64,000 nt of DNA from Ewingella americana (GTDB lineage: Bacteria > Pseudomonadota > Gammaproteobacteria > Enterobacterales > Enterobacteriaceae). Each line of letters starts with the position of its first letter. Positions within the stretch are counted from its first letter, which is position 1. Of the stretch, positions 29,901 to 37,362 are shown piece by piece. The DNA is taken from NCBI RefSeq assembly GCF_006438725.1, contig NZ_RCZD01000002.1:497294-561293 (forward strand). Direction: 5' to 3'. The notes beneath the pieces are model-generated. The model was given only the letters and a program-made list of their open reading frames with translations. It made no database searches and was not told where the DNA came from. Position numbers and translations under genes: made by a program.

Positions 29901-30418
29901 TCGTGAGCGGACCGGCCACCATCGCAGAAGGTGCACGCTTAATCCCGATCGGTGAGCGTTTGACACTGGAATGCACAACCGGCACTCAAGTCCTCGACAG
30001 TATGAACTTTGCCGAACAGGCGCAGTTCATCTGGCACCCAGGCCAGTGCCAAAACGTCAAACTGGAGGTCAAGTTCCCCAATTTTAACGCGACCTACCGC
30101 TTCGAAGGTAATAACGCCTGGCCTGATTTCCTTCAACAGTTTATCCGTGGCGAAGCACTGCTCAACGCCCGGGATTTTGAGGACAACGCCGATTTACTGG
30201 CGGAGTTAAACATCAAGCATGTGCTGGTTCGCTTTAAGATTTCCGACCAACAGCTTCTGCAAAACGCCTGGGGCGAGTGGCTATATTTGGATGAGCAACT
30301 CAACACCCTTAAAGAACAAAAACAGGCCCTTGAAGAGCAAAAAATCAACCAACAACCTTCAGCTGCCCTGCGAGGGCGCCTCGCTGAACTTCCAGAAAAT
30401 GCGGCAGAGTGCCGGTAA
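26984..30418 (+). CDS. tssM: T6SS inner membrane protein TssM (IcmF family)
   Basis: A 1144-residue IcmF protein. Two N-terminal membrane helices (about residues 5-25 and 35-55) lead to a cytoplasmic NTPase domain with Walker A GDRCGKTS near residues 109-116; a third helix near 385-405 (VVFGSLLLLGCVGVLGYS) crosses to the large periplasmic region that contacts TssJ. The C-terminal part carries the conserved beta domain (WPGQC-like IWHPGQCQNVKLEV). All expected segments are present and there is no frameshift. clpV begins 19 bases after the stop. Confidence 0.96.
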   Translation: MLKKLFVFAGWLLLLCLVLLFCCTAGLWLNWSTPTIFMVWLGLLVAGVMLWGALLWLTQLIKEKKVNRFFQKFRLSHREYVLFDYWKTGAAVVKRIQRKRPAIPWYILLGDRCGKTSLLAGSGLPMFSSDGEDSTVVHTHTLRWWFFRNVCFLDLSSNFLNGTPTFHRAWGKLVGWIARIPAPSGVMICLSITDLLNEDVSTLHDKARKIRAQIEPLTRKLKRQLPLYITITQCDKFLAFSLWAQQLSTAQRQQVLGYYWQTPPNIDGKDASTLLPLFTALKNGLDLARLSMTGTPMPPDVHAALLDFPESFTRLQKPLQVFLASLCEPNAYFTRTSLGGVWFTASEQQDKNKSRRTAYFVHDLLMHHLPAFSTSREVLWQYNKRLRVVFGSLLLLGCVGVLGYSAVKSAALMQRDTASLTPTELADLLMKNESHRDSPLLYLPFSPVLNQQHRQIEQQLRAKLPPRPSNSEQMSMAYLQQFVTAPTQTQRQMVLDLAQTIITRQSMRDGATLEALSLQPMTPDALRLNAGDPGSSPHTLLALDRWVMQQPAGADQLAALHGLLSTLINYDQTLAWLTAPVDSLPAIQDSDFWPQALGVVSLSGIWTRQGELQISEWVALINQANNKTQPEPLLQNFMQTLPAQRQNAWRQLLLDVTPWLQDKKPQSLPQNQLIALSQGQSPAMKFAQRIAFELDNIPDQSTQPWLSELRRLQKLPSQAAENPALQKMQQVDAKLRSGFIKWLQGGKLIALAHNLTPQPNAWLKWQTSLNAAASKALNQAVLSPALTEGLFAPQAEAKAINPLVTLFASFDQLHKALEPRSQEIGVEAVWSLYQSDASSLLAHAVARSGCWLNDQWQSKVMWPMRKNAAEQDYDTQQTLAWQYLADFVRGPAKGLLTVSDLGPQAGEFHGQTLPLTEEFLSLARHMLNPEDVLDSPVHQNTQSEDRLTTLNDQIGQITQQQKTLETKAYNISIVSGPATIAEGARLIPIGERLTLECTTGTQVLDSMNFAEQAQFIWHPGQCQNVKLEVKFPNFNATYRFEGNNAWPDFLQQFIRGEALLNARDFEDNADLLAELNIKHVLVRFKISDQQLLQNAWGEWLYLDEQLNTLKEQKQALEEQKINQQPSAALRGRLAELPENAAECR

Positions 30419-30437
30419 CTTATTGAAAGGGATCTTT

Positions 30438-32978
30438 ATGAGCAGTTACTTAAAACACATCGTTGACAAACTTACCCGCGAAAGCCGGGTATGTCTGGAT
30501 ACCGCTGTCAGCCAGGCCGTTTCGCGCACCCATCATGAGGTCGATGTTGAGCATCTCTTACTGGCCGTGATAGTTAATCATAGCGACCTGATGGAAACCC
30601 TCAGTTTAGGCGCAGGCCTGAAACCGGATGCACTGCTTAACGCCACGCAACAAACACTGAACACCTTACGCAGCGGCAACAGCCGTGCTCCGGTGTTCTC
30701 CACCGGCCTGGTTCAGTGGTTGGAAAAAGCCTGGCTTCACGCCAGTGCCAACTGGGGGCAATCACATCTCGCACCTCCGGTTCTGCTGGCCTGTCTGCTC
30801 GATGAAAATACTGCCCCAGATTTACCCAGCGGCGTGCGCGAAGCCCTGAGTTGCTCCCGAGATACGGCTGAACATCTGCTGCATAGCGCCTGCCAGACCA
30901 CGGCCAATGTTTCCAGTTCTCCTGCGGAGATGGGCAATACTGCACTTGGCAAATTTACCCGTAACCTGAGCGCCCAGGCCCGCAAAGGCGAACTGGATCC
31001 GGTGCTGGGGCGCGAAGCTGAAATTCGTCAGATGATCGACATCCTGCTCCGTCGTCGCCAGAACAACCCCATTCTGACTGGCGAACCAGGTGTGGGGAAA
31101 ACCGCACTGGTTGAAGGTTTGGCCCTGCGCATCGCTGCCGGTAATGTACCGGACGTTTTAAAACCGATGGAAGTACTGACGCTGGATCTGGGCCTGCTCC
31201 AGGCGGGCGCAAGTGTAAAAGGTGAGTTTGAAAATCGTCTTCAGGCGTTGATGAAAGAGATCGCCAGCGCAGCGCAGCCTATCATTCTGTTTATCGACGA
31301 AGCCCATACGCTGATTGGCGCAGGCGGCCAGGCGGGGCAAAACGACGCCGCCAATCTCCTTAAACCTGCACTTGCTCGCGGCGAATTGCGCGTAGTGGCC
31401 GCCACTACCTGGGCGGAATATAAAAAGTACGTCGAAAAAGACGCTGCGCTGGCCCGCCGCTTCCAACTGGTACAGGTAGCCGAACCCAATATCGACAGCG
31501 CCACCGCCATGTTACGTGCCATTGCTCCTGCCATGTCTCGCCACCACGGCGTGTTGATCCTGGAAAGCGCGATTCATGCTGCTGTTACACTCTCCAACCG
31601 TTACATCGCCGGACGGCAAATGCCGGATAAATCCGTCAGCCTGCTTGATACGGCATGCGCCCGCGTGGCAGTTTCCCAATCTCACAGTCCAAAAGAGATT
31701 GAAGATATCAATGCTCTGCTCAGCAACCTGAATACCGAACATGATGCGCTGCTTAAAGAGGGGCAACACGACCAGCGTCTGGCAAAACTGGCACTGCGTG
31801 AAAGCCAACTTCTGGCCGATCTCGCGTACCTTCAGCCACAGTGGGAAAAACAAAAAACATTGGTGCAGCAACTGATGCAAAGCAACGATGAAAGCGCCAC
31901 CGCCCAGTGGCGAAAAGAACTCACGCAGCTTCATCAGGCACAGGCACTGGTATTTGACTGCGTAGACGCTACCTGCATCGCCGATGTTGTTTCTGGCTGG
32001 ACCGGCGTGCCGCTAGGGCGCATGGTTGAAAAAGAACATCAACAGTTAGGCGAACTGCTCCATCGCCTGGAACAGCGCGTTTTGGGTCAACGCCACGCGC
32101 TCTCAACCATTGCCACACAAATACGCATCAGCCGCGCCAATCTTAGCGACCCGTTAAAACCGACCGGGGTGTACATGCTGGCAGGTCCGTCTGGGATCGG
32201 TAAAACAGAAACAGCCCTGATGTTGGCCGATTTACTCTATGGCGGCGAACAAAGTCTGGTGACGATCAACATGTCGGAATACCAGGAGGCCCATAGCGTT
32301 TCGGGTCTGAAAGGCTCGCCACCGGGCTATGTGGGTTACGGTCAGGGCGGGGTGCTGACTGAAGCGGTGAAACGCAATCCGTACAGCGTGGTCCTGCTCG
32401 ACGAAGTGGAAAAAGCTCACCCAGACGTGATGGAGTTGTTTTATCAAGTGTTCGACAAAGGAGTGATCGAAGATGCGGAAGGTCAACGCATTAACTTTCG
32501 TAACACGCTGATAATAATGACATCAAACCTGGCAAGTGCGAGGATCACGGCCGCCTGCGCAGCAGGAGAAACGTCGCCAGAGGCACTCTGCACACTGATC
32601 CGCCCAGAGTTCGAACACGTTTTCCGCCCGGCGCTAATGGGCCGCGTCACGCTCATCCCCTATCTGCCACTGCAACCCAAAACGTTGGCGAAAATCATCA
32701 AGCTCAAACTTGAGCATATCTGCCAGCGTTATGACACTGCCAGCAACGGTGAGGCGCAACTCAAATATAGCGAGAGCGTGGTCGCCTGGGTGGCTGATTT
32801 GTGCCAGGTGAACCAGAGCGGTGCCCGTGATATTGATCAGGTATTGAACCAACATATTCTGCCGCTGCTGGCAGACAACCTGCTACAGGAAGAGAAAACT
32901 ACGCCTGGGGGTCGGAAACTAAGCATCGTTAAAGGGGGATTGGTTATCACCACAGCAGGGAAAAAAAATGGCGAATAA
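30438..32978 (+). CDS. clpV: T6SS sheath-recycling ATPase ClpV (TssH)
   Basis: An 846-residue AAA+ unfoldase. An N-terminal Clp repeat domain (about residues 1-150) binds the sheath. The first AAA+ has Walker A GEPGVGKTALVEG near 214 and Walker B ILFIDEAHTLIGAGG; a middle coiled-coil domain lies near 400-500; the second AAA+ has Walker A GPSGIGKTETAL near 583 and Walker B VVLLDEVEKAHPD. It disassembles contracted TssBC. The ATG at 30438 follows GAAAGGG; the open frame extends upstream inside tssM but without conserved sequence. It overlaps the next gene by 11 bases. Confidence 0.97.
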   Translation: MSSYLKHIVDKLTRESRVCLDTAVSQAVSRTHHEVDVEHLLLAVIVNHSDLMETLSLGAGLKPDALLNATQQTLNTLRSGNSRAPVFSTGLVQWLEKAWLHASANWGQSHLAPPVLLACLLDENTAPDLPSGVREALSCSRDTAEHLLHSACQTTANVSSSPAEMGNTALGKFTRNLSAQARKGELDPVLGREAEIRQMIDILLRRRQNNPILTGEPGVGKTALVEGLALRIAAGNVPDVLKPMEVLTLDLGLLQAGASVKGEFENRLQALMKEIASAAQPIILFIDEAHTLIGAGGQAGQNDAANLLKPALARGELRVVAATTWAEYKKYVEKDAALARRFQLVQVAEPNIDSATAMLRAIAPAMSRHHGVLILESAIHAAVTLSNRYIAGRQMPDKSVSLLDTACARVAVSQSHSPKEIEDINALLSNLNTEHDALLKEGQHDQRLAKLALRESQLLADLAYLQPQWEKQKTLVQQLMQSNDESATAQWRKELTQLHQAQALVFDCVDATCIADVVSGWTGVPLGRMVEKEHQQLGELLHRLEQRVLGQRHALSTIATQIRISRANLSDPLKPTGVYMLAGPSGIGKTETALMLADLLYGGEQSLVTINMSEYQEAHSVSGLKGSPPGYVGYGQGGVLTEAVKRNPYSVVLLDEVEKAHPDVMELFYQVFDKGVIEDAEGQRINFRNTLIIMTSNLASARITAACAAGETSPEALCTLIRPEFEHVFRPALMGRVTLIPYLPLQPKTLAKIIKLKLEHICQRYDTASNGEAQLKYSESVVAWVADLCQVNQSGARDIDQVLNQHILPLLADNLLQEEKTTPGGRKLSIVKGGLVITTAGKKNGE

Positions 32979-34086
32979 TAGCTACTCCGTGAAGCCAGGC
33001 GAGGTAAAAATCAATTGTCACGATCCTCGCCACCACAATGAATTTTTGCTGCTCAGTAACAGCGTTAACAACTGGAAAGGTCATGTTCACGATCGGTCCT
33101 GGTGGTTGACGCAGGAAAACCAGTGCCTGGAAATATTTCAGCGCCACGGCTATGACCTGCAAAGTGGCGTCTGGTTCTGCCTGATAAGTTGTCAGCGCCA
33201 CGGTTGGGCGGGCATGGCGAACGCCACGCTGTTGCTGGCCGAAGGATTTAGCAAGAAACAGCGCCAGTGTTGGCCCCCCATTGCAGCAACCAATCTGCGT
33301 CAGCAAATTATCGAATGGTATTGCACACACGCTGCTACCTGTATTTATGGCTTACCGTTAACCAGTATTGAAGTAAAAACCCTTGAACAGCTTGAAGGAG
33401 CAGTGTCACTGATGCTCCAGCAGGCGTTAAGCCTGCAATCGCGCAGCCAGGCGGCATTGCGTAACCTTCTCGACTATCTTCAGTCATGTAGGCAATCGCT
33501 ACAGAAAAGGGCATTGGTGGCCAAACTCGAAATCCAGGAATCACCTCGGCCGCCAGTCACCCCAGCCCCAATATTGGTTCCTGAGCAGACTCCGCTACCG
33601 GTTCAACGCCCGTGGAAAGCGTTGCTTACTGGTGGCGCTATCGGTATCGCCCTTACGCTTGGCATAGTTAGCGCGTCAAATTGGCTGGAGCAACCTTCGG
33701 CGGCGATCAGTTTATATAAGCTCTGGCCCGGCAATCCTGTCTCCGCACGCTGGCAAAAACATCTCGCCGAACAAATCGCCAGCTTGCCCAATACCAACAG
33801 CTGGGCGTTGGTAAACAAGCAGTTAAACGACCTCGAACAACGCCTGCTGGATGCCGAGCAAAAACGTAAACCTTATATGACGATTTCCGAGCTGAAAACC
33901 GCCATTTACCAGATGCGTCAGACACTGCAACAGGGCGGTGAACCTGCACTGGCGCAGCTTGATGCTTTGCAAAGTAAGCTGGATAGCCAGCAGCCGGTCA
34001 GCAACGCTGAAATAAATGCTGTCTCCCAGCATCTTGAAGCGTTAAACAGCCGGTTGATTCAGATAACGAGCAAACTACAGGAATGA
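32968..34086 (+). CDS. VasL/TagA-like T6SS protein with ImpA-type N-terminus and membrane helix
   Basis: A 372-residue protein. The N-terminal half (about residues 25-200) resembles the ImpA/TssA domain (WWLTQENQCLEIFQRHGYDLQSGVWFCLIS…W.GMANATLLLAEGF). A Pro-rich linker precedes a single membrane helix near 217-237 (ALLTGGAIGIALTLGIVSAS), and the C-terminal region (LYKLWPGNPVSARWQ…) corresponds to the VasL domain. Proteins of this layout are TssA relatives; TagA members sit at the opposite membrane and hold the extended sheath. That role is inferred here. It closes the operon and overlaps clpV. Confidence 0.85.
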   Translation: MANNSYSVKPGEVKINCHDPRHHNEFLLLSNSVNNWKGHVHDRSWWLTQENQCLEIFQRHGYDLQSGVWFCLISCQRHGWAGMANATLLLAEGFSKKQRQCWPPIAATNLRQQIIEWYCTHAATCIYGLPLTSIEVKTLEQLEGAVSLMLQQALSLQSRSQAALRNLLDYLQSCRQSLQKRALVAKLEIQESPRPPVTPAPILVPEQTPLPVQRPWKALLTGGAIGIALTLGIVSASNWLEQPSAAISLYKLWPGNPVSARWQKHLAEQIASLPNTNSWALVNKQLNDLEQRLLDAEQKRKPYMTISELKTAIYQMRQTLQQGGEPALAQLDALQSKLDSQQPVSNAEINAVSQHLEALNSRLIQITSKLQE

Positions 34087-35308: not shown

Positions 35309-35340
35309 CGAATGGGCCCGTTTTGCCCTCAGGAAAAAGC

Positions 35341-35503
35341 CTTTGACTTGTTCACAAGGCAAAGTCATATTCAGGTTATGAATATATCTCAGAACGTCTT
35401 ACATACGACCACCCTAACGACCGCTCAAGGCGGGACGTAAGGTTGGTTCGTCGATGTAAAACGCGCTGACCCCAAGCCCCCGCCCGACAGGACGGGGGTT
35501 TTC
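35341..35503 (+). ncRNA. Unassigned structured RNA or leader with terminator
   Basis: Four successive hairpins stand between ygaP and the hydrolase gene. H1 35341-35364: CTTTGaCTTG-ttca-CAAGgCAAAG. H2 35367-35385: ATATTCA-ggtta-TGAATAT. H3 35394-35463: a long imperfect hairpin with basal CGT-c-TTACAT / ATGTAA-a-ACG, a middle helix and apical CCGC-tcaag-GCGG. H4 35477-35503: CCCCCG / CGGGGG with a T-rich tail, a Rho-independent terminator. It ends 39 bases before the hydrolase ATG. It is either a small RNA or a leader controlling the next genes by attenuation. I could not match it to a known class. Confidence 0.55.
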
Positions 35504-35541
35504 TTTTCTCCGTACTTGAAGGCTATTTTAGGAGAAAAGAG

Positions 35542-36096
35542 ATGAACCCCTCTTATCCTGTCAAAAAAGCTCTGGTTATCATCGATATGCAAAACGGTCT
35601 GTATTTCGCTGAACCAGCGGCTTATATGAAAGAGCATGTCCTTAAAAATATCAACTTCCTGATCAGGGAATTTCGCCGCAGAAACGAGCCCGTTATTTTT
35701 GTTCAGCATACCGGTCCGAAAGATTCCCCCATAGAACAGGGAAAGGCCGCCTGGCAACTCGTTAGTGAAATGGAGTCCAATCCAGCCACTGACCTGATCT
35801 TCAGTAAATTCAAAGCCAGCATTTTTACTGAGACACCCCTGCTCGAATGGTTAACACATCACGGCATCACCGATCTCTGTATCGCGGGGATGAAAACACA
35901 ATATTGCGTTGATACCGCTTGCCGCGCTGCATCAGGTTTTGGGTTCAACGTGGTACTGGCATCCGACGCACATACCTGCATGGATACGCCGGCACTCACG
36001 GCTCAGCAAATAATCAACCACCATAATATGACACTCAGCGGCCCCTTTGCCAGGGTGAAAAGCACTGCCGAAATAGTCGGCACAGATATTGCTTAA
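35542..36096 (+). CDS. Isochorismatase-fold cysteine hydrolase
   Basis: A 184-residue cysteine hydrolase of the isochorismatase/nicotinamidase family. The catalytic triad is visible as Asp in LVIIDMQNG (about residue 15), Lys in FSKFKAS (about 90) and Cys in MKTQYCVDTACRAA (about 118). The substrate cannot be told from sequence; family members hydrolyse amides such as nicotinamide, ureidoacrylate or biuret. The TTTTAGGAGAAAAGAG region supplies a ribosome-binding site. It is followed by a periplasmic binding protein and a VOC protein on the same strand, suggesting uptake and breakdown of one compound. Confidence 0.88.
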   Translation: MNPSYPVKKALVIIDMQNGLYFAEPAAYMKEHVLKNINFLIREFRRRNEPVIFVQHTGPKDSPIEQGKAAWQLVSEMESNPATDLIFSKFKASIFTETPLLEWLTHHGITDLCIAGMKTQYCVDTACRAASGFGFNVVLASDAHTCMDTPALTAQQIINHHNMTLSGPFARVKSTAEIVGTDIA

Positions 36097-36153: not shown

Positions 36154-36936
36154 TTGAACAAATACAGTACGGTAATGTTCGTTTTGATGGGGTCTTTCAG
36201 TGCGATAAGTCATGCTGAAACCGTGATTAAGTTCGGCGTCGATCCCTCTTTTCCTCCGTTCGAATCAAAAGCGGCGGACGGTTCGCTGACCGGTTTTGAT
36301 ATTGATCTGGGGAATGCTATTTGCCAGCAAGCCCAAGCAAAATGCGTGTGGGTCGAAACGGCTTACGACAGTATTATTCCTGCGCTGAATGCCAAAAAGT
36401 TCGATGCCGTACTCTCCGCCATGGCCATTACCGAAAAACGTAAAGCTCAGGTCAATTTCTCCAACGTGCTCTACAACATCCCCAGCGTTTTGGTGGCAAA
36501 AAAAGGCAGCCAGCTTGATACCACCGTTGACTCACTAAAAGGAAAAGTGATCGGCGTGGCGCAAGGCACCACTCAGGAAGCTTACGCCATGGGCGTGTGG
36601 CAGTCGAAAGGCGTGCAGGTGGTGTCTTACCAGAATCAGGATTCGGTCAATCTGGATTTAGAAACAGGCAGAATTGATGCCACTTTCACCAATGCGGCGG
36701 CTGCAGAAACAGGATTTTTGAAAACACCACAGGGCGCTGACTTTGCTTTTGTCGGTAAAACCGTGCTTGACCCGCAATACTTAGGCGGCGGCGCAGCGAT
36801 TGCTTTACGTAAAGAGGATCAGGCCCAATTGGCGATGATCAACAAAGCCCTGGCCGGTATACATGCTGATGGCACCTATACGAAGCTTGAGAAAAAATAC
36901 TTCACCTTTGATGTCTTTAGTAATAACAAACCCTGA
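36154..36936 (+). CDS. Periplasmic amino-acid-type ABC binding protein (SBP_bac_3)
   Basis: A 260-residue solute-binding protein of the ArgT/HisJ type. It starts with TTG at 36154 (GGGGAAG upstream), giving the signal peptide MNKYSTVMFVLMGSFSAISHA with cleavage before ETVIKFG. Mature sequence has FGVDPSFPPFESK, GFDIDLGNAIC and DSIIPALNAKKFDAVLSAMAITEKR, the family signature for basic or polar amino acids. No permease or ATPase gene lies nearby, so it must use a transporter encoded elsewhere. Start codon choice rests on the signal peptide; the internal ATG would truncate it. Confidence 0.9.
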   Translation: MNKYSTVMFVLMGSFSAISHAETVIKFGVDPSFPPFESKAADGSLTGFDIDLGNAICQQAQAKCVWVETAYDSIIPALNAKKFDAVLSAMAITEKRKAQVNFSNVLYNIPSVLVAKKGSQLDTTVDSLKGKVIGVAQGTTQEAYAMGVWQSKGVQVVSYQNQDSVNLDLETGRIDATFTNAAAAETGFLKTPQGADFAFVGKTVLDPQYLGGGAAIALRKEDQAQLAMINKALAGIHADGTYTKLEKKYFTFDVFSNNKP

Positions 36937-36960: not shown

Positions 36961-37362
36961 ATGTTTTCCCATCTTTGTATTGGCGTAAACGATTTTGATC
37001 GGGCATTCACCTTTTATTCTGCGATAGCCAAAATTCTGGGTCTGGAGCTCAAGTTCAGCGATAGCGAACGGGCATGGGCTGGCTGGCAAAGGCCAGCGAT
37101 ACCGCGTCCGCTATTGGTTATCGGTAAACCTCTGGACGGCCAAATCGCCACGGCTGGAAACGGGCAAATGGTGGCATTACTTGCTGATAACCGCACCCAG
37201 ATTGAGCATGTCTATCAGGCGGCACTGAAACATGGTGCGACCTGCGAAGGCCCACCAGGCTTGCGTCCGCATTATCATGAACACTACTTTGGTGCCTACT
37301 TTCGCGACCCTGATGGCAATAAACTCTGCGTTTGTTGCCATCAGCCGGACGCAGACAGTTAA
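36961..37362 (+). CDS. VOC (glyoxalase/bleomycin-resistance fold) family protein
   Basis: A 133-residue protein with one pair of VOC modules. The N-terminal HLCIGVNDFDRAFTFYSAI and the C-terminal GLRPHYHEHYFGAYFRDPDGNKLCVCCH carry candidate metal ligands (His near the start, His/Glu in the second module). The ATG at 36961 follows AGGAGCAAGA. Reaction is unknown; relatives include lactoylglutathione lyase and dioxygenases. It ends the short operon with the hydrolase and binding protein, and overlaps the end of convergent gatR by four bases. Confidence 0.82.
   Translation: MFSHLCIGVNDFDRAFTFYSAIAKILGLELKFSDSERAWAGWQRPAIPRPLLVIGKPLDGQIATAGNGQMVALLADNRTQIEHVYQAALKHGATCEGPPGLRPHYHEHYFGAYFRDPDGNKLCVCCHQPDADS

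Follow-up and report, generated by a model that had tools for sequence, protein, structure and literature searches.

The threonine operon leader (Rfam Thr_leader) is a ribosome-mediated attenuator of the class found in enterobacterial amino-acid operons. Ribosome-mediated attenuation reportedly also governs trpRS1 of Streptomyces coelicolor, which is said to encode an auxiliary, antibiotic-resistant tryptophanyl-tRNA synthetase (TrpRS). Obafluorin and borrelidin are described as poisons of threonyl-tRNA synthetase (ThrRS), and producers of obafluorin carry obaO, an additional resistant ThrRS, as immunity gene (available text of PMC9880928 and PMC10619133). The stretch of DNA analyzed here (64,000 nucleotides of Ewingella americana, NCBI RefSeq assembly GCF_006438725.1, contig NZ_RCZD01000002.1, positions 497,294 to 561,293; in the following called the window) contains at positions 35341 to 35503 a leader located directly before the gene of an isochorismatase-like cysteine hydrolase. 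Like the thr operon leader, this interval combines a short open reading frame (ORF) holding a run of codons for a single amino acid, threonine, with predicted alternative 1:2, 2:3, and 3:4 helices that exclude each other and with an intrinsic terminator before the structural gene (Table 1). Judged from these sequence features, it is very probably an attenuator in which a translating ribosome senses how much Thr-tRNA is available and so sets transcription into the hydrolase gene.

A sequence-only reading of the same interval had described four successive hairpins (H1 to H4) at a density unlikely to arise by chance. Both statements hold, since all four hairpins are present in the predicted fold of positions 35331-35510, whose energy of -69.6 kcal/mol compares with -45.4 ± 4.15 kcal/mol in 200 dinucleotide shuffles (z = -5.83), none of which was as stable. 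Overlooked in that reading were the Thr-rich leader ORF, the hairpin masking the Shine-Dalgarno sequence of the hydrolase gene, and the promoter TTGACT(17)CATATT at 35343-35371, which lies beneath H1 and H2 and ends six bases ahead of the leader AUG. As H1 and H2 (the latter ATATTCA/TGAATAT, 35367-35373 with 35379-35385) cover the promoter and the leader start codon, they are probably features of the promoter DNA rather than parts of the RNA, an assignment that depends on a predicted, unmapped transcription start. When RNA starting at 35378 is folded, the prediction consists of 1:2, 3:4, and 5:6, and when region 1 is withheld to mimic a stalled ribosome, the 2:3 antiterminator is predicted instead.

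For the conservation of this arrangement, genome contigs were scanned with an alignment of the hydrolase, which yielded 236 relatives, the best 80 of which were used for all counts of relatives. A Thr-rich short ORF (at least 5 Thr in 8 residues, at most 500 bases upstream) was present at 72 of these 80 genes, compared to 6 of 800 random windows from the same loci, and seven of the remaining eight genes are preceded by a frame with 4 Thr in 8, a cut to which the 800-window background does not extend. Applied to the other 19 amino acids, the same test gave at most 10/80 for Arg (background 53/800), followed by 9/80 for Ser (background 40/800). The hosts of Thr leaders include Pseudomonas, Burkholderia, Shewanella, Vogesella, Erwinia, and Proteus, among others, with ..LTRTTTTTAxGGS.. 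(Pseudomonas) and ..STTTRTTAFGG.. (Burkholderia) as typical peptides; the leader of Pseudomonas protegens (L069) is of this type and has 4 Thr in 8. Among 18 more distant hydrolase relatives, the 5-in-8 cut was reached only in locus L033, which is counted among the positives, and three reached 4 in 8.

At the DNA level the element is rarely recognizable, and nucleotide similarity searches miss far relatives. Besides the window genome, strong E-values were obtained in 1 of 59 relatives, 1 of 5 congeners, and 2 of 391 family members (one of them over 59 bases only); with E-values up to 1 some match occurred in 40 of 60 genomes, which we read as chance. Comparisons of the interval with Escherichia coli genomes, plasmids, and phages gave no similarity, and its DNA pattern was not found in viral contigs. 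In the congener, recorded as an uncultured Enterobacterales genome, the element is 81% identical over 204 bases, and its leader peptide MNKFMRTLHTTTATTAYGGT (ending in a stop, like the peptides given below) is followed by the hydrolase, the binding protein (91.5% identical), and the VOC gene (80.8%) in the same order as in the window. Upstream, the congener carries an IS1 transposase (PF03400), and no ygaP- or arsR-like gene was found within 10.5 kb of the locus. The retention of the element together with the three downstream genes and without a ygaP-like gene upstream bears out the earlier proposal that it is a leader controlling the downstream operon. Two further genomes of the family, one of another genus and one at locus L033, carry the leaders MKHFVHVLATTTATATQWRAARVRIS and MFIAAGRITTTTRTTAFGGGVSVGAMVS, respectively, each before the hydrolase gene.

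Most aligned leaders have in common a GGCGGG directly behind the Thr codons, in keeping with the A-x-G-G at the end of their peptides, as well as one type of terminator, GGCCCCGCC-loop-GGACGGGGCC. The antiterminator pairing of GGCGGG with the 5′ terminator arm is predicted in the folds of all 41 non-redundant leaders (of 82, L077 omitted), compared to 209 of 820 letter-shuffled ones. For the inner antiterminator stem, native duplexes reached a mean of -12.8 kcal/mol and duplexes with arms swapped between leaders -10.0 kcal/mol, with none of 5000 permutations reaching the native mean and 20 of 27 non-redundant leaders (again of 82) beating their mean swap; omission of L059, L061, L064, and L077 led to the same outcome (-12.8, -9.9, 0/5000). 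The sequence behind the terminator, CTCCGTCC (CTTTTCTCCGTAC in the window), can pair with the Shine-Dalgarno sequence as helix 5:6 (native -12.2, swapped -9.9 kcal/mol, 0/5000 permutations), and an alternative pairing, with the 3′ terminator arm, would give helix 4:5 (-14.5 versus -13.6 kcal/mol, 31/5000). These last two tests used 30 non-redundant of 78 sets, with L077, L033, and two loci without a start found being omitted, and for three of the 30 (L092, L114, L119) a wrong hydrolase start had been chosen. A simple consensus scan did not list the terminator of the window, and a perfect-stem finder missed the terminators of most relatives because their stems hold a mismatch.

The geometry of the promoter is likewise shared. 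Counted from the end of the best promoter, an in-frame leader AUG follows after 6, 7, or 8 bases in 76 of 82 leaders, the exceptions being L033, L109, and L127 with other distances and L077, L111, and L128 with no promoter found (L077 reads N at this place). Without L077 the count is 76/81, compared to 18/1620 with shuffled upstream bases, whereby any in-frame AUG at the expected place was accepted, under the identical rule in the shuffles. A good match to the anti-Shine-Dalgarno sequence precedes only 2 of 81 leader AUGs as opposed to 74 of 82 hydrolase starts; in L127 and L128 a run rich in purines precedes the leader instead. An AUG placed 6-8 nucleotides after the -10 box and mostly lacking a Shine-Dalgarno sequence suggests that the AUG is most likely the very first codon at the 5′ end of the leader mRNA, that is, that this mRNA is leaderless.

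The switch suggested by these features would work as follows. Transcription would start with the first base of the leader AUG. A ribosome translating all 20 codons would cover region 2, so that 3:4 could form and transcription would end before the hydrolase gene. If Thr-tRNA were scarce, the ribosome would be expected to stall on the ACG/ACC run and region 2 to pair with region 3, which would block the terminator and allow the polymerase to continue. Helix 5:6 would form a second lock by hiding the ribosome-binding site of the hydrolase gene; in many relatives, pairing of region 5 with arm 4, once released, could open the site. The same helix might serve as a fail-safe, as the site would still be masked if a polymerase slipped past the terminator while 3:4 holds.

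Table 1. Parts of the predicted switch and the genes behind it, in window coordinates.
Feature	Position	Strand	Basis or remark
-35 box TTGACT	35343..35348	+	promoter prediction; kept in the congener (L002/L052)
-10 box CATATT, spacer 17 bp	35366..35371	+	predicted transcription start 35378 = A of the leader AUG
Leader peptide ORF, 20 codons, MNISQNVLHTTTLTTAQGGT and stop	35378..35440	+	ORF reading; related Thr-rich ORFs in relatives
Control codons ACG ACC ACC CTA ACG ACC (five Thr in six)	35405..35422	+	sequence
1:2 (pause) hairpin = H3, Thr codons in the 5′ strand	35389..35469	+	predicted fold
2:3 antiterminator	35429..35484	+	GGCGGG 35429-35434 with CCCGCC 35479-35484; inner stem 35441-35447 with 35465-35471
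3:4 intrinsic terminator hairpin = H4, then T-rich stretch	35474..35501	+	predicted fold, leader alignment
5:6 hairpin TCTTTTCTCC/GGAGAAAAGA	35502..35540	+	arms 35502-35511/35531-35540; masks hydrolase Shine-Dalgarno (AGGAG at 35530)
Controlled gene: isochorismatase-like cysteine hydrolase	35542..36096	+	probable D15-K89-C122 triad
Solute-binding protein, SBP_bac_3, ArgT/HisJ-like	36154..36936	+	present in the congener
VOC protein (glyoxalase/bleomycin-resistance fold)	36961..37362	+	present in the congener

Other genes behind the same switch were found with a covariance model built from 34 leaders. On the genomes of the loci it gave 16 of 16 at an E-value of 0.05 and 45 of 47 at 1e-6, and among 61 genomes of the genus of B. 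paludis 42 at 1e-8. Across the class (185 genomes, the window genome among them) the window itself scored 1.5e-16 and the next place 9.9e-6; eight of the weaker places and a second place in the window genome were inspected and rejected, as none has promoter, leader, terminator, and gene in order (L133 and L134 hold Thr-rich short frames). The Thr switch precedes a second ThrRS in L228 (TIGR00418, 453.5 bits with a cut-off of 383.65), which by Pfam consists of the catalytic core and the anticodon domain only and has no editing domain. It further precedes MFS transporters (L223, L225, and L229 by Pfam; L226, L230, and L231 by similarity) and an ABM protein (L190 by Pfam; L232, 75% identical). 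With the run changed to Met (for example ..NMMCSSMTASGGP..), the switch precedes a GNAT acetyltransferase, identified by Pfam in L240, with identical copies in L179 and L189, and by eye from the sequence in L180, L224, L233, and L236-L239. The damaged or cut loci L227, L234, and L235 were not counted. The Met-codon units might perhaps protect from a Met analogue or from an inhibitor of methionyl-tRNA synthetase.

For 50 of the 55 places in the B. paludis genus plus L231 and L232, labels were assigned by tblastn comparison with eight reference sequences that represent five kinds of protein. The resulting 54 loci, i.e., 52 sites (L244/L229 and L247/L230 are the same places), comprise 25 hydrolase copies (20 long matches and the five fragments L260, L270, L277, L281, and L282), 19 ThrRS (L170 truncated), seven MFS loci or five sites (L243 on a short match), two ABM proteins, and the unlabeled L252, which contains a ThrRS-like stretch of 72 residues. 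No gene of Thr or Ile biosynthesis was seen behind the switch at the labeled sites (22 and 54 loci, overlapping, a few of them without a clear label).

The loci also offer some observations on how the units may have spread. The proteins behind the Thr switch in L223, L225, L229, L230, L190, and L232 start with a stub resembling the start of the ThrRS of L228 and L170. For one pair, MDDFDHRALGNKLDL and MNDSDHRILGSKLGL, 10 of 15 residues are identical (E = 0.005); the others were judged by eye, and the likeness is weaker in the ABM proteins. From the sequences it looks as if the switch and the first codons of a ThrRS gene were joined to new genes. The three Met-leader GNAT copies L179, L189, and L240 of P. 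frederiksbergensis (NZ_CP018319) are pairwise identical over 1288-2288 bases, and in L179 an IS66 transposase (PF03050) lies upstream, so the Met-leader GNAT unit may travel as a passenger. P. batumici carries two Thr-leader MFS copies (L225 and L226, 99.0% identical over 2554 bases), and the hydrolase gene of this genome (L083) has no Thr leader.

The hydrolase of the window contains the isochorismatase domain (PF00857, 113.2 bits) and a probable D15-K89-C122 triad, whose residues are invariant among four relatives, which places it among the isochorismatase-like cysteine hydrolases. An identity as a biuret, nicotinamide, or ureidoacrylate amidohydrolase (BiuH, PncA, or RutB) was rejected, the scores of 46.9, 39.4, and 30.2 bits comparing with NCBIfam cut-offs of 370, 174, and 377.95. 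It scores 66 and 61.9 bits with the PDB entries 5ha8 and 5hwg, which we take to be MhIHL. MhIHL is described as an isochorismatase-like (+)-gamma-lactamase (available text of PMC5353710) and thus belongs to the same superfamily, with its D13 and C111 aligned to D15 and C122 of the window protein; the similarity is only distant, and phmmer puts K89 one position off K78 of MhIHL, on a Lys of 2a67. Given D-K-C residues as in amide- and lactam-cleaving relatives, the hypothesis may be put forward that the hydrolase could open the lactone or amide of a compound inhibiting ThrRS. The neighborhoods of the hydrolase genes vary and gave no clue to the substrate. In Winslowiella arboricola a fluoride riboswitch lies directly behind the hydrolase gene (L099:5597-5672), and 70 plasmid records, 41 of them from Pantoea, carry a relative of the hydrolase, several being annotated as cysteine hydrolase family protein.

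Under borrelidin, ribosomes stop more often at Thr codons (available text of PMC13410324). A spare ThrRS, a transporter, and a hydrolase that would all be turned on as Thr-tRNA runs short resemble a set of responses to a ThrRS poison, and we therefore lean towards inhibition of ThrRS, for example by obafluorin or borrelidin, as the signal, and towards a hydrolase that destroys or neutralizes such a compound. The interval itself could alternatively be a ligand-binding riboswitch or a free-standing small RNA, as the sequence-only reading proposed. The strong fold (z = -5.8) would agree with either, yet both are scarcely credible, as conservation lies in a short ORF with its run of Thr codons and in mutually exclusive helices, the codons of the run become Met before another gene, and the inner stems vary in sequence while their pairing is maintained. 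The covariation that was to be looked for in relatives is present in the inner antiterminator stem and in the Shine-Dalgarno-masking helix, and the scan against Rfam 15, riboswitches included, matched no family at the gathering score over the leader, neither in the window nor at the loci of 13 of the 80 relatives. Down to an E-value of 10 only sub-threshold matches appeared, such as the Pseudomonas rnk leader with 19.8 bits against a gathering score of 55, and the Thr_leader model was absent both at gathering and among these matches. The import and breakdown of a nitrogen compound, which the same reading had suggested as function, finds no support, the same switch preceding a second ThrRS and an MFS transporter elsewhere.

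If the element is an attenuator, its signal might still be another one. Plain Thr shortage could induce the hydrolase, which would then release threonine or a precursor from an amide; this follows the logic of the thr operon leader and agrees with the amino-acid-type binding protein in the window operon. It is nevertheless unlikely in view of the targets, which at the labeled sites were a second ThrRS, an MFS transporter, an ABM protein, and the hydrolase rather than genes of Thr or Ile biosynthesis. Considerably less probable is a shortage of zinc or another impairment of ThrRS, with the controlled genes restoring or sparing the charging of Thr-tRNA, an idea that leaves the MFS transporter and the hydrolase behind the same switch unexplained. 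Marginally weaker again is the notion that the poly-Thr leader responds to a drug that acts on the ribosome and makes it stall after Thr, rather than to Thr-tRNA. Chloramphenicol does stall ribosomes after Ala, Ser, or Thr (available text of PMC12121999), but Ala-rich frames are at background among the relatives (3/80 versus 36/800), Ser-rich ones exceed it only about twofold (9/80 versus 40/800), and a second ThrRS would be no help against such a drug.

Several observations weigh against a Thr-tRNA attenuator that guards against ThrRS poisons. That the switch is shared is no proof of a hydrolase acting on a ThrRS inhibitor, within the clade of the hydrolase no enzyme with a known substrate was found, and the binding protein and the VOC protein of the window operon are not accounted for. 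The hydrolase gene in L083 has no leader, L033 has leader and hairpin without a U tract, and the leader of the window is poorer in Thr than many, with one CTA within its run. The unit is dispensable in some strains, as only fragments remain of five (L260, L270, L277, L281, and L282) out of 25 labeled hydrolase copies, and the leader ATG is lost as well in L277, L281, and L282; before all five decayed genes the switch is still recognizable. The swap contrast is weak for the 1:2 pause helix (native better than the mean swap in 26/41), and for the terminator helix (32/41) it is weaker than for the inner antiterminator stem. In the antiterminated fold of the window 5:6 remains closed and release through 4:5 is not seen; an opening of the site by region 4 is therefore something that we infer.

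Taken further, the Thr and Met units might represent a portable, leaderless sensor of synthetase failure, a chassis spread across proteobacteria by gene exchange in which the codon run names the threatened tRNA (Thr or Met) and which drives resistance genes (spare synthetase, transporter, hydrolase, acetyltransferase), with the hydrolase as an enzyme inactivating natural ThrRS inhibitors and the double lock of terminator and masked ribosome-binding site as a new attenuator layout; we consider this wider proposal evenly poised between right and wrong. With the present analysis, a likely function can be assigned to an unannotated leader that occurs in several bacterial orders in front of 79 of the best 80 (of 236) relatives of an uncharacterized hydrolase. 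As the codon run would name the endangered tRNA, leaders of this chassis could show which uncharacterized enzymes counter which poisons of tRNA synthetases. Hydrolases and acetyltransferases of unknown substrate would thereby become testable resistance genes, which may help to find new soil-made synthetase inhibitors.

In the remainder of the window, a tmRNA gene (649-1012) is followed by the RNAs isrK and C4 (9323-9550), perhaps marking an element integrated at the tmRNA gene. Both RNAs are linked to phage-like elements. A ClpV-like AAA ATPase and a VasL-type gene of a type VI secretion system (30219-34086) lie just upstream of an arsR-ygaP pair.

A literature search returned no account of this kind of switch by title or beginning of the abstract, which is weak evidence of absence as most subscription journals were not covered, and the available main text of Naville and Gautheret, 2010 (PMC2965389) contains neither isochorismatase nor threonine. 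Compared with the thr operon leader, the element has no match to an Rfam model and stands before a hydrolase, binding protein, and VOC gene instead of thrABC. Its leader AUG, in most cases without a Shine-Dalgarno sequence, coincides with the predicted start of the transcript, the ribosome-binding site further downstream is masked by an additional hairpin, and most leaders show A-x-G-G after the codon run. With obaO it would share the use of an additional ThrRS as protection from a ThrRS inhibitor; the available text on obaO mentions no attenuator (PMC10619133), and in the spare ThrRS of L228 Pfam recognizes no domains besides the catalytic core and the anticodon domain. As in trpRS1, an attenuator appears to control a spare synthetase, presumably an antibiotic-resistant one; unlike trpRS1, which concerns Trp in a Gram-positive bacterium, the present switch is built on Thr, occurs in proteobacteria, and also precedes a hydrolase, a transporter, and an ABM protein. 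The basic mechanism is thus classical, while the leaderless layout, the extra lock, and the set of targets appear to be new.
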